Shown here one piece after another: positions 37,978-50,964 of a DNA stretch of 64,000 bases. The stretch is from Candidatus Cloacimonadota bacterium (GTDB lineage Bacteria; Cloacimonadota; Cloacimonadia; Cloacimonadales; Cloacimonadaceae). The notes beneath the pieces are model-generated. The model was not told where the DNA came from. It did not search any database and saw only the letters and a program-made list of their open reading frames with translations. The stretch is from contig JAJBAV010000002.1 in the NCBI GenBank assembly GCA_020532085.1, positions 1-64,000 of the forward strand, written 5' to 3'. The translations under genes were made by a program, and so were the position numbers. The first letter of the stretch is position 1. Every line of letters starts with the position of its first letter.

Positions 37978-38059
37978 GCCGGGGTCCGGCAGCCTGGAGT
38001 CCAGCGAGCCTGTGAGCATGGACTACAGGACCAGAACGGGCTGGGCATTCGCATTTCAT

Positions 38060-38178
38060 ACGGATTTACGGATTGAACGGATTTACGGATTGAAAGGGTT
38101 TAGGGATTGAACGGATTTAGGGGTTGAACGGGTTTAGGGATTGAACGGGTTAACGGATTGAACGGATTTACGGATTTA
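38060..38178 (+). repeat. Seven tandem 17-bp units
   Basis: Units begin at 38060, 38077, 38094, 38111, 38128, 38145 and 38162 with consensus ACGGATTTACGGATTGA. Units 1 and 2 are identical; the others differ at one to four positions. There are no spacers, so it is not a CRISPR array. Shorter copies are at 6868, 8280, 8336 and 13394. Confidence 0.9.
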
Positions 38179-38828
38179 AACATCCCCCACCCCGCTGGAG
38201 TCGAGCGACGCAGGAGCATCGACTACAGCAGAACATTCTCCACCCAGCCCCAGAGTGTCATTCCGGGGAAGCGTGCGCCAGCACGCGGGGACCCGGAATC
38301 CAGCCCTTGCGGGAATAGCCAATCCCAGTTCCGGTCCAAGCGGGGATCGATGCAGACTGCGCTGTATCGACTCCCTCAGGGGCATTAGCCGGAAGGCCTG
38401 GATTCCGTCACTGCGTTCCGGAATGACGCAGATTTGGAGCGAGGCGGTGATGGCCTGGATTCCGGGACCCCGGCGTTAAAACGCCACCCCGGAATGACAG
38501 GGTGTGAGAGGGTGGATGAATGGCCAGGATTCCGTCACTGCGTTCCGGAATGACGCAGGGTTGGAGCGAGGCGGTGATGGTCTGGATTCCGGGACCCCGG
38601 CGTTAAAACGTCACCCCGGAATGACAGGTTCGGGCTGGGGCCACACTCAAGACGGAAGGCGGTGGCTTCAGCCACCGTACTGGGATGAGCCCCCAACCTT
38701 GTAAACAGACGATGTCCGTTTGGCTTCAGCCACCGGCTTCCTTCTTTTCGAAGCGCACAGACATTCCTTGCCGCAGCCGAAGCTCCCGGGTCGCCCCACC
38801 CCAACGGAATCAGCTTCTCCCTTCCGTG

Positions 38829-38946
38829 TTTCGCCCTTTAGCTCAGCCCCTTCGCCTCTTGTCCGCCTCCCCCTGACTTCCCGCCTGTCAGGCGGGAACT
38901 CAGCGGGAAGTGAGTGAGAGGCAAACGGGAGGAGGCTAAGGGCGAA
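38829..38946. repeat. Long inverted repeat of the GGCTAAGGGCG family
   Basis: Outer ends TTTCGCCCTTTAGC and GGAGGCTAAGGGCGAAA pair imperfectly. The centre is a perfect TTCCCGCCTG-T-CAGGCGGGAA hairpin (38878-38898) followed by CTCAGCGGGAAGTG. Same family as 63273-63387 and, in part, 26132-26164. Confidence 0.65.
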
Positions 38947-39271
38947 AACCTGGAGGTTTGACGCCAACAGGTCCGGACAAAGAATCCCAACATTTTGCTT
39001 CGCTCCGCGTTGAAAAATATCAACAGCCGGGCCTGGATGCTCAAACACATCACCTGTAAAGGATTTATCCCAAGGCAAGCCGAAAAAAGATGGGCGTTGC
39101 GCCAGCCGGCAGAGAGCCATCACGATCGGGATTTTTACCGGCCTGATATTCATGAATAGAATGTAACTCTATGGCATATAAATCGATATACGTGAGACCG
39201 GAGATAATGGCATCATCAGGTTCAGGCATGAACAGACAATCATGGGATGATTAATAATTGTAACATTGTTC

Positions 39272-39300
39272 TTGACATCAATCCAATCCCCGCCATTTAT
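39272..39300 (+). promoter_or_regulatory. Probable promoter of the giant surface protein
   Basis: TTGACA at 39272-39277, 17-base spacer, ATTTAT at 39295-39300, 75 bases before the ATG at 39376. Confidence 0.5.
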
Positions 39301-39375
39301 TGGGAACGTGGGGTTTTATCCGCGGGAAAGGCCGCGGCAGAGATTTTAACTAAGGTCCATAACAAGGAGACTGCC

Positions 39376-42300
39376 ATGAAACGAACGCTTATGCTCGGCA
39401 TTTTCGCCTTCCTTTGTGTTTTTGGCTTTGCCTAGACCATGGGCAATTACAGTTTTACCACCGGTTCCGCAACTTACACTGAGATCACGGGCGGAATCGT
39501 ATTGGGCAATGAAAGCACCGACGCCCAGCGCTTTGTGGACCCCATCGTTCCCCTGGGCGGCACAACCAACACGGGAGTGGGCTTTCCGCTGGGCTTCAAT
39601 TTCTATTTTGGCGGCCAGGAGTTCGACCGGGTGGGCATCTGCGCCGACGGCTGGATCGGGCTGGGGCAGTCCTGGGAACCGGTTCCGGTGAATATGTCAA
39701 GCAGCAGTTACATTGCTCCGCTCAGCACCACCTCAGGTATCAACCCTCCCTGGCTGGTGAACCGGGTGGCAGGCCTGGCCCTGAATCTGGCTGCCCAACC
39801 CGGCGCCACGCTGCAGATCAAAACAATTGGCAGCGAGCCCTACCGGGTGTTTGTGGCCCAGTGGGCAGGATACCGCAAAACCAGCGCCACCGGGGATAAC
39901 TTCAATTTCCAGATCCGGCTGCAGGAAACCACCAACTGGGTGACGATCATCTATGGAACAGTGACCAACAACGCCACGGCGACCACGGGGCAGGTGGGTC
40001 TGCGTGGGGTTCCTGCCAATCTCGCCACCAACTATGCCAACCGCAGCACCACCACTGATTGGAACGCCACCACCGCCGGCACTGCCGCCAACAGCACCTG
40101 CACCCTCAGCAGCGCGGTCTATCCGGCCAGCGGCACCACCTTCACCTGGGCCCCGCCGGCAGCGATCAACATCAGTTATACCATCGGCAGCGGCGGGGAC
40201 TTCACCACTTTCGCGGCGGCTTTCAATTTTCTCAACACCAACTACCCGCTCTCCGGCATCCCGCAAGGGGGAACCAGCTTCAACGTAGCGGCCGGAGAGG
40301 TTTTCAGCCAGGCGGAGCTGCTGCCCGCCCTCACCGCCACGGGAGGGCCCAACCGCCCCATAACCTTCAGGAAAAGCGGAACCGGGGACGACCCCATCCT
40401 GAAAGTGATGGGCACCACCGCCACCACCGACGCGGCCATCAAACTCAACGGCGGCGACTGGTTCAGATTTGAGCATCTGGACCTGCGCAACGCCGACGGC
40501 TCCACCTCCCTGGAGATCGGCTTCCACCTGGCCGCGCAAAGCTACGATCCCTGCAACAACAACACCATCAGCTACTGCAGCATCACCCTGGACAACAGCA
40601 ACGCCAACAGCAAGGGGCTCTATTCCACCGGAACCAGCGGAGCCGGGAACGCCAACAACAGCTATTCCCACCTGGACATCGCAAACTGCGACACCGGCAT
40701 CCACTTGCTGGGAAACAGCACTGCGGCATATTACAATCTCCAGGAACTGGTGGAATACTGCGACTTGAGCGACATCACAGACTACGGGATCTATTTCGGT
40801 TACGTTACCGGCCTGAGGGTCACCCACAACACCATAACCATGAAAGCCGACAACACTGTGGTTTTCCACGGAATCTACGCTTACAACGGAACTGCCGAGG
40901 TGGACAACAACACCATCATCGGCAACACCACCATCGGCAGCATAACCGTCCACGGCCTCTACGGACGCGCTGGAACCCTGATCGACTGGCATCACAACAC
41001 CATAAGGGATTTCAGCGGTACCTATCAGGTTTACGGCGTCTATATCTACAACGGCAACCACGACATCCACGCCAACGAGATCCATGCCCTCAGCTCCTCA
41101 AACCAGCATGTGTGGGGGATCTTCCTCGATGGCGGAACCGATGCCGTGAATGTTTACGGCAACGAGATCCACAATATCAAGTTCGTGGGGAATCCCGGAA
41201 ACGCTTACACAGCCTCTGGCATAGCTTTGCATGGAAGCGATGTAACAGTGGCCAACAACCTGATCTACGACCTCGGCAGTGTGGGCGACGGAGCTCCCAT
41301 GATCCGGGGCATCACCGCCGATACGGGCGGAACGTTCAGGATCTACTACAACACCGTCTATCTGAAAGGCGGCAACAGCAACACCAACTTCGGTTCCGCC
41401 GGCATCTACGTTTATACCGGCCCTTCCACCCTGGACCTGCGCAACAACATCATCGTGGACCTCAGCACCCCGGGATCGGCAACCACGGGAAGGGCGGCCG
41501 CCATTTGGAAGAATAACTATTCTGGTTTTGCCAATTTCGACCCCAGCTGCGACCGCAATATCTACTACGCCGGCTCGCCGGGGCCGAAGAACCTGATTTG
41601 TTATGACAACGGGGCTGCTTACGAAACCCTCAGCGACTACAAGGCCGCGATCATGACCCGCGAACTGGGCTCGCTGACGGAAAACGTGCCTTTCACCAGC
41701 ACGGTGGAACCCTACGACCTGCATATCCCCACCGGCGCTTCCACCCTGGCCGAGAGCAACGCCCTGCCCCTTGCCGGCTGGGATCTCGACTTTGACGGCG
41801 ACAACCGGGATGACGAGTTTCCGGACATCGGAGCGGATGAAGGCGCTTTCACCGTACCCGCCGTGGTTCCTGACCCGCCAGTGCTGATCAGCCCGGCTGA
41901 CGGGGCCATAGTGGTACAGCCCAGCGCCACCCTCTCCTGGGCCGCCGCTGACACCGGAGGCGCGCCCACTGGCTACCGGCTGCATTTTGGCACCAACCTG
42001 AACTCGCTCACCGTGATGGACCTGGGCAACGTGACCAGCTACGATCCAGATCCGGACCTGGATTTCCTCACCACCTACTACTGGAAGGTGGTGCCCTACA
42101 ACACCACCGGCCCGGCTGATTCCACCGCTTATTCCCACTGGAGTTTTGAGACCCACGCCGCTCCGCTCACCGGCAACTATATCATCGGCAGCAGCGGCTA
42201 CTACCTCACCTTCACTTCGGCCATCACCCATCTGAACGCGGCCGGGGTGGGCAGCGGAGGAGTTACATTTATGGCCATCGCCGGAGAAGTCTTTACCGAA

Positions 42301-45300
42301 AATCCGCCCCCCATCACAGCCACCGGCACCGCCGCCGATCCCATCGTGTTCACCAGCACGGACACCACGGCGGTGAATCCCCTGCTGACCCCAACCGGAG
42401 GAACCGACACCTATGCCCTCAAGATCGAGGGCGGCGATCACATCACCATCCACCACATCGACGTCGGGAACCTGCCGGCCGCCACCAATTTGGCCAATGG
42501 CTACTGGATCGAGGGGGTTTCCGGCAACGGCTGCGATCACGTGACCATCCGCAATTGCGGCATCACCCTCGATCTGGCTGTAACCAGCACCGCGATCTAC
42601 CTGAGCGGGGGAAGCAGCAGCACCGGCACCCAGGTGCTCGAGAACGTGATCGACAGTGCCAACCGTGCCGTTTACCTCTATCCCACCACGACCGCCTACA
42701 ACAGCCTGGTGCAGGGCAACGTGATCAGCAATGCCATCCAAGGCATTTATCTGCGTACAGACAACGGCAGCCTGGTCCACGATAACCAGATTTCCTTCCC
42801 CGCCGCTGCCACGGCAGCCCTTTACGGCATCTATCTTTACTCCTCCACAGGCACGCAGGTGTCGGCCAACACGGTGAGCGGAGGCAGCACCACCTCCACC
42901 TGTTACGCGTTGTACAACCGGAGCGGCACCAACTCCTGGTTCGGCAACCTGGTCAGCAATCTGCACAGCAACTACACCATGGAGGGATTTGACATCTACA
43001 GCGGCACCCTCGACATCCATGACAACGAGTTCACCGCCCTCAGCTCCAATCAGACTATTCTCGGCATCGATCTGAACCTGGAAGGCGGAGGCAGCGCCCA
43101 ACTCTATCGCAACAAAGTGCACAACCTCCAGTCCAACTCCACCGCGGGTTATCAAGCCTACGGCATCGTAAGCGGCACCACCACAAACCTGGTCCACAAC
43201 AACCTGATCTACGACATCCGCAATCCCGGCGGCAGCACGGCGCCCCAGGTGTTTGGCCTGCAGGTTAGCGGAGGTTCTCCCAGCCTGCATTACAACAGCG
43301 TGTACCTGAACGCCTCCGGCAGCAACGACAACTTCTCCAGCGCCGCCCTGTATGTGTCCGGCGGCAGCTCAATCCTGATGAACAACAATATCTTCATGAA
43401 TGCCGGCACCCCTGGAAGCAGCGGCAAGAGCGTGGCCTTCTGGAAAACTGCGGACGGCTTTGCCAACATCAATGCCGCCACCGACCGGAACATCTACCAT
43501 GCCGGCACCCCGGGAACGCAGAACCTGGTCTGCTGGACGCCTTCCGCCAGCTACCAGATCCATGACGATTATAAAGCGGCGACGGTGACCTCCGACCAGA
43601 ACAGCTTCACCGAGGAAGTTCCCTTCGTAAGCGCGACCGACCTGCATATCACTCCCGGAGCCGCCACCCAGGCGGAAAGCAACGGCATCGCCATCGCCGG
43701 GATCAGCACGGACTACGATGAAGAGGTCCGCGCTGGAGAGATGGGCTACGCGGGAACTGGCACAGCGCCGGACATCGGGGCGGACGAGGGTGAGTTTACC
43801 GTTCCGCTGCTGATCCCTGATCCAGCCATCGTGGTTTCCCCCTATGACGGTGAATACGCGGTAGTGCTGCAACCCACCCTCACCTGGTATGCCTCCTCCT
43901 CCGGCGACGTCCCCACCGGTTACCGGCTCAGCCTCTGGGCGGAAGACCCGCTGGAATACATTGAAGGCGGCACTGACCTGGGAATCGAGCTCAGCTACAA
44001 CTGCACAACCACGCTGGACTACCTGCGGACCTATTACTGGCGCATAGTTCCTTATAACGACAACGGCTCCCCCGATTCGCTGGACTGCCCCGTCTGGAGT
44101 TATTCCACCCACAAGGAACCGCTCACCGGCAGCTGGGTGATCGGCACAGGCCACTTCTATCCGGATTTCACCCACGCCATCAGATACCTGAACGCCAGTG
44201 GGGTGGGTACCGGAGGGATCACCTTCACCGCAGTGGCCGGTGAGGTTTTCGCCGAAAATCCACCCGCCATCACCGCCACCGGGACCGAGCTGAATCCAGT
44301 TGTCTTCACCAGCACGGACACCCTGGCCACCAACCCCAAGATCACGCCCACCGGTGGGACCGGCAGCTTCGCCTTCAAGCTGGCCGGAGGCGATTTCTTC
44401 ACGGTCGACCACATCGACATCGCCAACGCCAGCGGCTCCACGAACATGAACTACGGCATCTGGCTGGAAGCCCCCACCGGCAACGGCTGCACCGATAATA
44501 CAGTCAGCGCCTGCGCCATCACCCTGGACCGCGGCGTGGAATGCTACGCCATCCGCGAAGATTCAGCCTCCGGCCGGGTGAACCACCGCAACCAGTATCT
44601 GCGCAACACCATCTCCAACGTGCGCTATGGCATCTATCTATACAATACCACTGCCTCCCAGACACCGGTGATCCAAAGCAACCAGATCACGGATTTCAGC
44701 GCTAACGCCATCTACAGCCGGGCATCCACCAACATCGACATCAGCCATAACCAAGTATCGATGGCTGCAGGCAACACCGTGGCTGCGACGGGCATCAATT
44801 GCTATGACGACAACGGGGTTGGCCTCATCCACCACAACACCATTACTGGGTCCAACACCACCCAGACCTTCACCGGCATCTACCACTCTCACCCCGATTT
44901 CGATATCCATCACAACTCCATCTTCGATGTGGTTTCCGCCAATGCCGTGTACGGAATAAGGATCAACACCGATTACGGCGCCAATAACCGTAGTGTTTAC
45001 GAAAACTCGATCACAGATCTCACCAGCACGGGAAACTATGACGTGATCGGGATCTTGGAAAATCGCGCGATCGCTTATCAGAACAACATCTCCGGTCTGG
45101 TTTCGAATGGCAACGTGAAGGGGATCTACATGATCCAGGGCACTGCTTACCGCAACGACATCCGCAACTTGCAGACCAATGGCGCCGCCACCACCGTGAT
45201 CGGATTGTATTCCACCGGCACCTCAACCTATCACAATAACATGATCTGCGACCTGCGCGCCCCCACCTCCAGCGGCTCCCCGTCCGTGCGGGGCATCCAC

Positions 45301-47682
45301 GTTCATAACGGGACCGCGAACCTCTACTATAACAGCGTTTTGATCACCGGCAGCGGCGGCGAAAGCTTCTCCTCCGCGGTGCTTTACACTTACAGCGCCA
45401 CATCGATCACGCTGCAGAACAACATCTTCGCCAACCTCTCCAGCCCCGGCGCTTCCGGCAAGGCGGCGGCGTTCTGGAAAGCGGTGGAACACTTCGACGA
45501 TATCAACGCCGCCAGCGACAAGAACATCTGGTATGCCGGAACACCCGGCGCGCAGAACCTGATCTGCCAGTACGGCGCCATCAGCTGCCAGACCCTAAAT
45601 GATTACAAGACAGCCAACCTGGGCAAGGACCAGAATTCCTATTCGGAAGACCCGCCTTTCCAAAGCGAGGCAGCGCCCTACAACCTGCATCTGGACCCGC
45701 AGGTGCAGACCTATGCCGAGGGCAACGCCCTGGTGGTGGCCTCCGTGGATATGGATATTGACGGCGATGCCCGTGACTCCGAATCCCCTGATATCGGTGC
45801 GGATGAGGGCGTTTTCACCGAAGTGCAGCTGCCGCCCAATCCCCCGGTCTATCTGAGCCCCGCCAACGAAGCGATCGACCTGGCTCTGAACATTCCCCTC
45901 GCCTGGGCTCCCGGTGGAGGCGGCGATCCGGATTATTACATGGTTTACTTCGGCGAAACGACCACTCCTCCCTTGATGGAAGGCAATTGGCCCGACACCG
46001 AATATTACCCCTTCCTGCTGCCCGAGCATACATATTACTGGAAGATCGTGGCGGTTAAGGACGGCTTTGACTCGGCTTCCGGCCCCGTTTGGAGTTTCGA
46101 CACCCGGGCCGACGACACCATCATGGAATATCCCTTTGTGGAGAGTTTCGAAGAAGGCAACGCGAGCGGCTCCACCGACATCAACCGCTGGACCAAGGCC
46201 CTCGGCGCCGGCTCCTACTATTGGACCGCAAATACCGACATCACCTACAACCGCGCCCCGCGCACCGGCAGCTATAACCTCACTCTGCACGACGGCGGCA
46301 ACGCCTGGCTATTCCGGCCCATCTATCTGGAGCAGGGGCAAAGCTACGGGCTGGAACTCTGGGGCCGGCAATACACCACTTCCGGTAGCCAGGCCATCCT
46401 GGAGATCAAGTATGGCACGGCTGCCACCATCGCGGGCATGACGAATCCCATCGTGGCTTACAGGGAAGTGGTGAACGGCGATTACCAGCGCGTGGCCGGC
46501 ACCTTCACCGCCCCCAGCACCGGCATCTGGTATCTGGGCATCCACGGCACCTGCGGCGGAACCACCAACTACATCTCCATCGACGACATCAGCATCGATT
46601 ACTACGAGCCCTACCCCGAGTTTTCCATTAACCCCGCCTCCTGGAACTACGGCATGGTGAACGTGGGCGAGGCCACACCCGCCAAAACCTTCGTGATCAC
46701 CAATACCGGCGACGCCAACCTCGTGATCATGCAGAATGACGTGTACCTGGAAGGCGCGGACATCGATGATTTCGACCTCACCGAACTCACTGACGACCTC
46801 ACCATCACACCCGGCAATTCCGCCAACCTCTATGTGCTGTTCGCCCCTCAAAGCATCGGGGCCAAAACCACGAACCTGGTGGTGATCGACAACGTTGGCA
46901 GCAAAGCGGTGCACCAGGTCCCCCTCTCCGGAAGGGGAATCGGGCCACTGGTCCCGCCCTGCGTGGAGGATTTCGAGGACGGCTGGATCGACTGGATCAC
47001 GGTGAATGGCACCCAACCCAACAAATGGGAACTTGGCAGCGCTATGACCTACCGCAACGGCTACGCCGCCTACATCAGCACGAACAGCGGCGCCACTCAC
47101 AGCTACAACCCCGGCGCCAGCTCCTACGTGCATTTCTACCACGACGTCACCTTCCCAGCGGACATGACCGGCATGACGCTGAAATTCCAGTGGAAGGGCG
47201 TGGGCGAAGCCCTCTACGACTACCTGACCGTCCACATCACCGACACAAGCTTCATTCCCACGGCCGGGACCTCCTTCACGGAAGGCCAGATCGGCGCTCC
47301 GCTGCACTCCATCGGCGACTGGCAGCTGGCCGTTCTTCCGCTTTCCGCTGATTACGCCGGCCTCACCAAGCGCCTGATCTTCAGCTGGCGCAATGACGGC
47401 GGCGGGGGAACCCAGCCTCCCGCGGCCATAGACAACATCCGCATCTTCTCCACCTGGCCCTATCTGGATGAGAACGACTACCCCGCCGAAGTGCAAATTT
47501 CCGCCGACGGCAACGGCAACGTGGTCCTCACCTGGGATAAGATCGAGGGTGCCAACGACTACATCATCGAGGACGCCGACATGTACGACGGGACTTTCAG
47601 CCCCATCGGACGCGGCTACAACAGCTTCACCACCCCCGGAAGCTACGCGAGGCGGTTCTTCCGGGTGCGCGGCACCGATTGA
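39376..47682 (+). pseudogene. Giant modular beta-helix surface protein interrupted by an amber codon after its signal peptide
   Basis: Translation from the ATG at 39376 (AAGGAG 7 bases before it) gives 19 residues of signal peptide ending FLCVFGFA, then TAG at 39433-39435. The same frame runs on open for 2747 more codons (39439-47682). The stop replaces the expected first mature residue, probably Gln (CAG to TAG). The mature part has an N-terminal domain (about 1-250), three modules of about 650 residues, each a parallel beta-helix closed by DIGADEG-F and a fibronectin-like domain (near 810, 1459, 2131), a carbohydrate-binding-like domain (about 2230-2390), an ASPM/DUF1573-like domain (about 2392-2500; INPASWNYGMVNVGEAT), a cleaved-adhesin-like domain (about 2505-2670) and a final fibronectin-like domain. 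The ATG at 39439 has no ribosome site. Recent nonsense mutation, sequencing error or readthrough are all possible. Confidence 0.8.
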
Positions 47683-50569: not shown

Positions 50570-50964
50570 GGTCTGGAAAAATGGCAAGGATTTTTTTCGG
50601 TTTTCTCGCCCAACGGACGAGAGAGGGTTTCAACCCATGATCCGTCCAGTGTTTTCTTCACAGGGTTGGATTCTGGTCTTCTTAACTGATCCAGATGGAT
50701 CCCAATTTCTTTGGTGAAGTTACACCGGCGAAAACCCATCCGGCTCCAAATATCAATACGGTATCAATACGGAATCATTACGGATGAAATCCGTATTGAT
50801 TCCGTATTGATACCGTATTGATATTGGGAGCGCTGGCTGGGGGAAAACCGGCTAATTAGCGCCACCAGCTCGTTCATTAAAGGCTTGGAAGGTCTCACGC
50901 GGCCTTGGGGAGGATTTAGCTTGACAGCACCGGGGCAGTCGGAAAATGGTGGCATTCTGAAACA
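50570..50964. repeat. Spacer with a 37-bp near-perfect hairpin
   Basis: No gene. The arms 50749-50785 and 50789-50825 pair over 37 bases with one mismatch and a 3-base loop. Each arm is made of three copies of an 11-base unit ATCAATACGG(A/T). The rest shows nothing recognisable apart from the lead region of the next gene. Confidence 0.75.

Follow-up and report, generated by a model that had tools for sequence, protein, structure and literature searches.

Locus and gene layout

In the window (the whole 64,000-nt stretch of DNA analyzed here), a ribosome-binding site and start codon lead into a signal peptide whose frame meets an amber codon at the signal-peptide junction and then continues into a giant β-helix protein (Table 1). 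The leader, its Shine-Dalgarno sequence, and the TAG were present exactly as the original prediction had described them, and the frame beyond the stop was open for the full length claimed. The following in-frame ATG, separated from the TAG by the single codon ACC, was said to have no ribosome site, and no Shine-Dalgarno-like sequence was found just upstream of it (GTGTTTTTGGCTTTGCCTAGACCATGG).

Downstream of the N-terminal domain, the giant protein consists of β-helix repeats, a region with Ig-like matches, and a C-terminal tail common to the window protein and its relatives. The tail was searched for a Por sorting signal of T9SS cargo, and no NCBIfam sorting-tail match was found at E values up to 0.1. 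As for the earlier description of a surface protein, the signal peptide, the NosD/β-helix repeats, and weak Ig-like matches were all recovered, while its location at the surface is presumed from them. Upstream of the gene, 1.4 kb (37978 to 39375) lack Pfam-supported genes and contain several short direct repeats (e.g., GGATTCCGTCACTGCGTTCCGGAATGACGCAG). Elsewhere in the window, a near-perfect palindrome of ~90 bp (50742 to 50831; ATCAATACGGTATCAATACGGAATC...) has about a dozen copies in 464 kb of the genome and was also found upstream of the orthologue in genome G010; it resembles a dispersed element of intergenic DNA.

Table 1. Coordinates of the features at the signal-peptide junction, in the giant protein, and of isolated stops in two homologues (window positions unless a locus is named)
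Feature	Position	Strand	Remarks
Shine-Dalgarno AAGGAG	39364..39369	+	6 nt upstream of ATG 39376; read from sequence
Signal peptide, 19 residues, MKRTLMLGIFAFLCVFGFA	39376..39432	+	Translation; orthologue counterpart MKRFLISVALASVCVFSFA-Q
In-frame TAG, presumed +1 residue	39433..39435	+	CAG (Gln) in orthologues L006 and L118
Next in-frame ATG	39439..39441	+	3 nt past the stop, without Shine-Dalgarno; Met in L006, Leu (TTG) in L118
Mature giant protein, open frame, 2747 aa	39439..47682	+	Stop ends at 47682
N-terminal domain, residues 1-237	39439..40149	+	Common to many exported proteins of relatives; homologues in 52/61 genomes
Three related β-helix repeat blocks, residues ~245-800, 908-1421, 1562-2101	40171..45741	+	Pfam NosD at 1026-1176; internal similarity in BLASTP
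HYDIN/Cep192-like Ig domain region, residues 2394-2500	46618..46938	+	Matches under Pfam cutoffs
Isolated in-frame TAA	L132 4555-4557		G066 orthologue; other genus than window
Isolated in-frame TAA	L131 3578-3580	reverse complement	G064 paralogue; other genus than window

Stops and leaders were scanned in a 464-kb sample of the host genome. The same arrangement of Shine-Dalgarno sequence, hydrophobic leader, and stop, with a strongly coding frame behind it and no neighboring gene with its own start to explain it, occurred there in the window case only. The remaining same-frame junction hits in the 464 kb were rejected, being either neighboring genes or antisense frames whose coding scores were poor.

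The boundary codon in orthologues

The closest orthologue, L006 from genome G010 of the same genus, shares 88% amino acid identity with the window protein over 781 residues. At the junction, GCC TAG ACC ATG GGC AAT TAC in the window corresponds to GCC CAG GCC ATG GGC AAT TAC in L006. The next orthologue (L118, 64%) has GCC CAG TCT TTG GGT AAT TAC at the aligned place. The L006 start is preceded by the same Shine-Dalgarno sequence as in the window, with ACAAGGAG upstream of its ATG too. Since L006 combines that ribosome-binding site with a related signal peptide and a CAG at the equivalent place, the window layout is not a product of chance.

More broadly, 42 homologue boundaries were inspected, leaving out copies in which the domain was not N-terminal. 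The boundary codon was Gln (CAG or CAA) at 22 of the 42 and a stop at none. Together with the CAG in both orthologues, these counts provide good support for the TAG being a former CAG (Gln) codon altered by a single C-to-T change at the first mature residue, as originally proposed and as the suggested comparison of orthologues now indicates. Neither a second allele with CAG elsewhere in the same assembly nor, in the family search, a second genome of the window species was found. That the stop falls exactly at the signal boundary is not as remarkable as it first seems, because a Gln at +1 is common in the family, and in the presumed ancestral sequence 5′ of the mature domain a single transition could create a stop at CGA-3 and CAG-20 only.

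In every intact relative the codon aligned with ATG 39439 lies inside the protein, and in L118 it encodes Leu (TTG). Hence, the ATG is an inherited internal residue and not a start.

Selection on the giant gene and age of the lesion

Purifying selection acted on the gene in the past and persisted until recently. Between the window and G010, dN/dS was 0.30 over the first 800 codons, on the N-terminal side, and 0.134 over the last 383 codons, whose G010 counterpart lies on another contig; dS ranged from 0.27 in the N-terminal part to 0.40 in the C-terminal part. Assigned to branches against outgroups, 22 changes fell to the window and 20 to G010, giving no sign of long relaxed constraint. Along the gene (39439 to 41781 compared with L082), dS against G010 was uneven, at ~0.5 to 0.8 in the first 300 codons and ~0.04 around codons 500 to 700, which suggests recombination between lineages in the β-helix part.

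No second lesion was found over the 8.2 kb (2747 codons) of the giant frame, from which 717 single-base paths lead to a stop. The absence of a second stop places the neutral divergence since the event below about 0.014 (~1.4%), and the bound falls to ~0.003 (~0.3%) when indels are included at an assumed rate of 0.1 for each substitution. The lesion, if real, is therefore young. The dN/dS values below 1 and equal branch rates likewise agree with the recent change that had been suggested. The rest of the gene is perfectly preserved, which is as compatible with a sequence error or functional bypass as with a very young mutation.

Isolated stops in homologues and probable draft-genome errors

Two other homologues, whose frames are otherwise open, carried one isolated TAA each, namely the G066 orthologue (L118/L132) at domain codon 145 and the G064 paralogue (L131) at domain codon 142. 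In the alignment, the two stops fall on neighboring, nonidentical codons midway through the domain, within an A-rich Tyr-Lys-Lys stretch at which relatives mostly encode Lys/Arg and Tyr/Phe; a stop position common to relatives was rejected on these grounds. Because these homologues each have a TAA of their own, sporadic nonsense alleles recur in the family.

For comparison, rpoB of the same 50 genomes contained one break with a TAG (G061, G061:C19:4972-8647), which is probably an assembly error because it is frameshift-like; draft errors thus probably occur in the genome set. The rpoB matches from 44 genomes contained no isolated stop of the substitution type. Counts this low cannot prove that lesions are more frequent in giant genes; they do show that the window gene is not alone in carrying a sporadic nonsense lesion. 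In G068, rpoB (G068:C47:29826-33893) matched as three pieces inside one open frame, which are possibly inteins.

These observations bear on whether the TAG is itself an artifact of assembly or consensus calling, or a base that a minority strain contributed to the MAG consensus, with the living population carrying an ordinary CAG gene. We consider this unlikely, albeit the alternative that deserves most weight. The window derives from a 2.81-Mb draft of 98 contigs (99% complete, 2% contaminated), the lesion is the only one of its kind in 464 kb, the remaining frame shows no decay, and drafts in the set include breaks in housekeeping genes that are probably errors (rpoB of G061). However, a clean single transition at a C-to-T-prone codon is exactly what a real mutation gives, the site lacks a homopolymer or repeat, and isolated nonsense codons occur in two further homologues, and the rpoB matches yielded none of the substitution type.

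Decoding of the amber codon

The original prediction had allowed for bypass of the stop by suppression, readthrough, or phase-type switching, and had suggested a search for an amber-suppressor tRNA. None of the 47 tRNA genes of the genome (RF00005 hits read with ARAGORN) had a CUA, UUA, or UCA anticodon. An overlooked suppressor gene is possible but unlikely, because the assembly is 99% complete. RF1 (prfA) was intact (492 bits, 359-codon frame), and no match to PylS in the genome reached its cutoff. Bypass through a suppressor tRNA, loss of RF1, or pyrrolysine is accordingly not supported. TAG is an ordinary terminator in this host, since 34 of 189 long ORFs in the 464 kb end with it, and no other coding frame convincingly broken by TAG was found there. 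Programmed readthrough as a conserved feature finds no support, all 42 homologue boundaries being free of stops. Inspection of 39376 to 39441 by eye revealed no slippable repeat or invertible segment, and phase-type switching is not supported.

A functional bypass could nevertheless operate if a near-cognate tRNA, such as tRNA-Gln (CUG), or a suppressor read the UAG, with low or regulated expression. The mature protein would then be nearly normal, because the inserted residue would lie at the cleavage site. A U directly after a stop codon lowers read-through, and the base here is A; the downstream frame is intact with a constrained history. The genome does encode tRNA-Gln (CUG), and misreading of UAG by tRNA-Gln in Escherichia coli is described in literature cited by PMC5289835. 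Set against these points are the missing CUA tRNA, the presence of RF1, the routine use of TAG as a terminator, a stop shared with no relative, and unremarkable RNA folding around the TAG (z -0.25). We therefore regard effective bypass as improbable, though some trace product may arise through UAG misreading. A broader scenario appears very improbable, namely that the isolated nonsense codons (the window TAG and the G066 and G064 TAA) recur as strains switch giant genes off under diversifying selection, with low-level misreading at the junction stop keeping a trace of exported protein. Also very improbable, though plausible in principle, is termination-reinitiation at ATG 39439: the intact Shine-Dalgarno-driven leader would bring ribosomes to the site, and the gap is very short, as required for such coupling, which needs overlaps or very short distances (PMC10666635), but the ATG lacks a Shine-Dalgarno sequence, was not selected as a start given its internal position in intact relatives and the TTG of L118, and would yield a cytoplasmic protein that, having no export signal, would remain in the cell without restoring function.

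Discussion

Taken together, the evidence points most likely to a loss-of-function mutation of an ordinary kind and recent date, or else to an error in the assembly, and not to new decoding. Between these, we think it probable that the window TAG is a recent nonsense allele, presumably an off variant, at strain level, of a surface protein that the cell can dispense with; we infer that the T at 39433 exists in the living bacterium and that the protein has been lost. A single C-to-T change would have converted the Gln codon just after the signal peptide to an amber stop, in the genome or in the dominant strain. Ribosomes loading at the AAGGAG site would make the 19-residue leader and then terminate via RF1, and the giant β-helix protein would not be produced in exportable form, save for traces from UAG misreading by normal tRNAs. 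If real, the lesion is a clean example of how one base change can cost an uncultured lineage an exported giant protein. It also serves as a warning, as gene callers will annotate a signal-less cytoplasmic protein from 39439.

Like amber recoding or suppression by CUA tRNAs or pyrrolysine, the locus has an in-frame TAG within a long coding frame. Unlike those systems, its genome combines a lack of CUA tRNA and a PylS score under cutoff with an intact RF1, and the 464 kb contain no second TAG of this type. The case provides no evidence that Cloacimonadota use recoding, and we found nothing in the literature on stop codons of this kind in the phylum. On/off surface expression would resemble that of phase-variable surface genes, which switch by repeat slippage or DNA inversion; in contrast, the window codon has neither repeat tract nor inversion site, and a point mutation provides no fast switching mechanism. 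The exported β-helix/Ig-like giants of other Cloacimonadota (G010:C17 = JAJBBF010000116.1 and others) share the N-terminal domain, β-helix blocks, C-terminal tail, Shine-Dalgarno sequence, and signal peptide with a +1 Gln, and differ in having a sense boundary codon (CAG/CAA or other). Strain-level premature stops in large surface-protein genes are a known general kind of variation. The window allele differs from these in placing its stop at the signal-peptide junction, so that only the leader would be made, and resembles them in its single nonsense codon within a frame that is intact elsewhere, its large and probably dispensable exported protein, and the intact alleles of its relatives.
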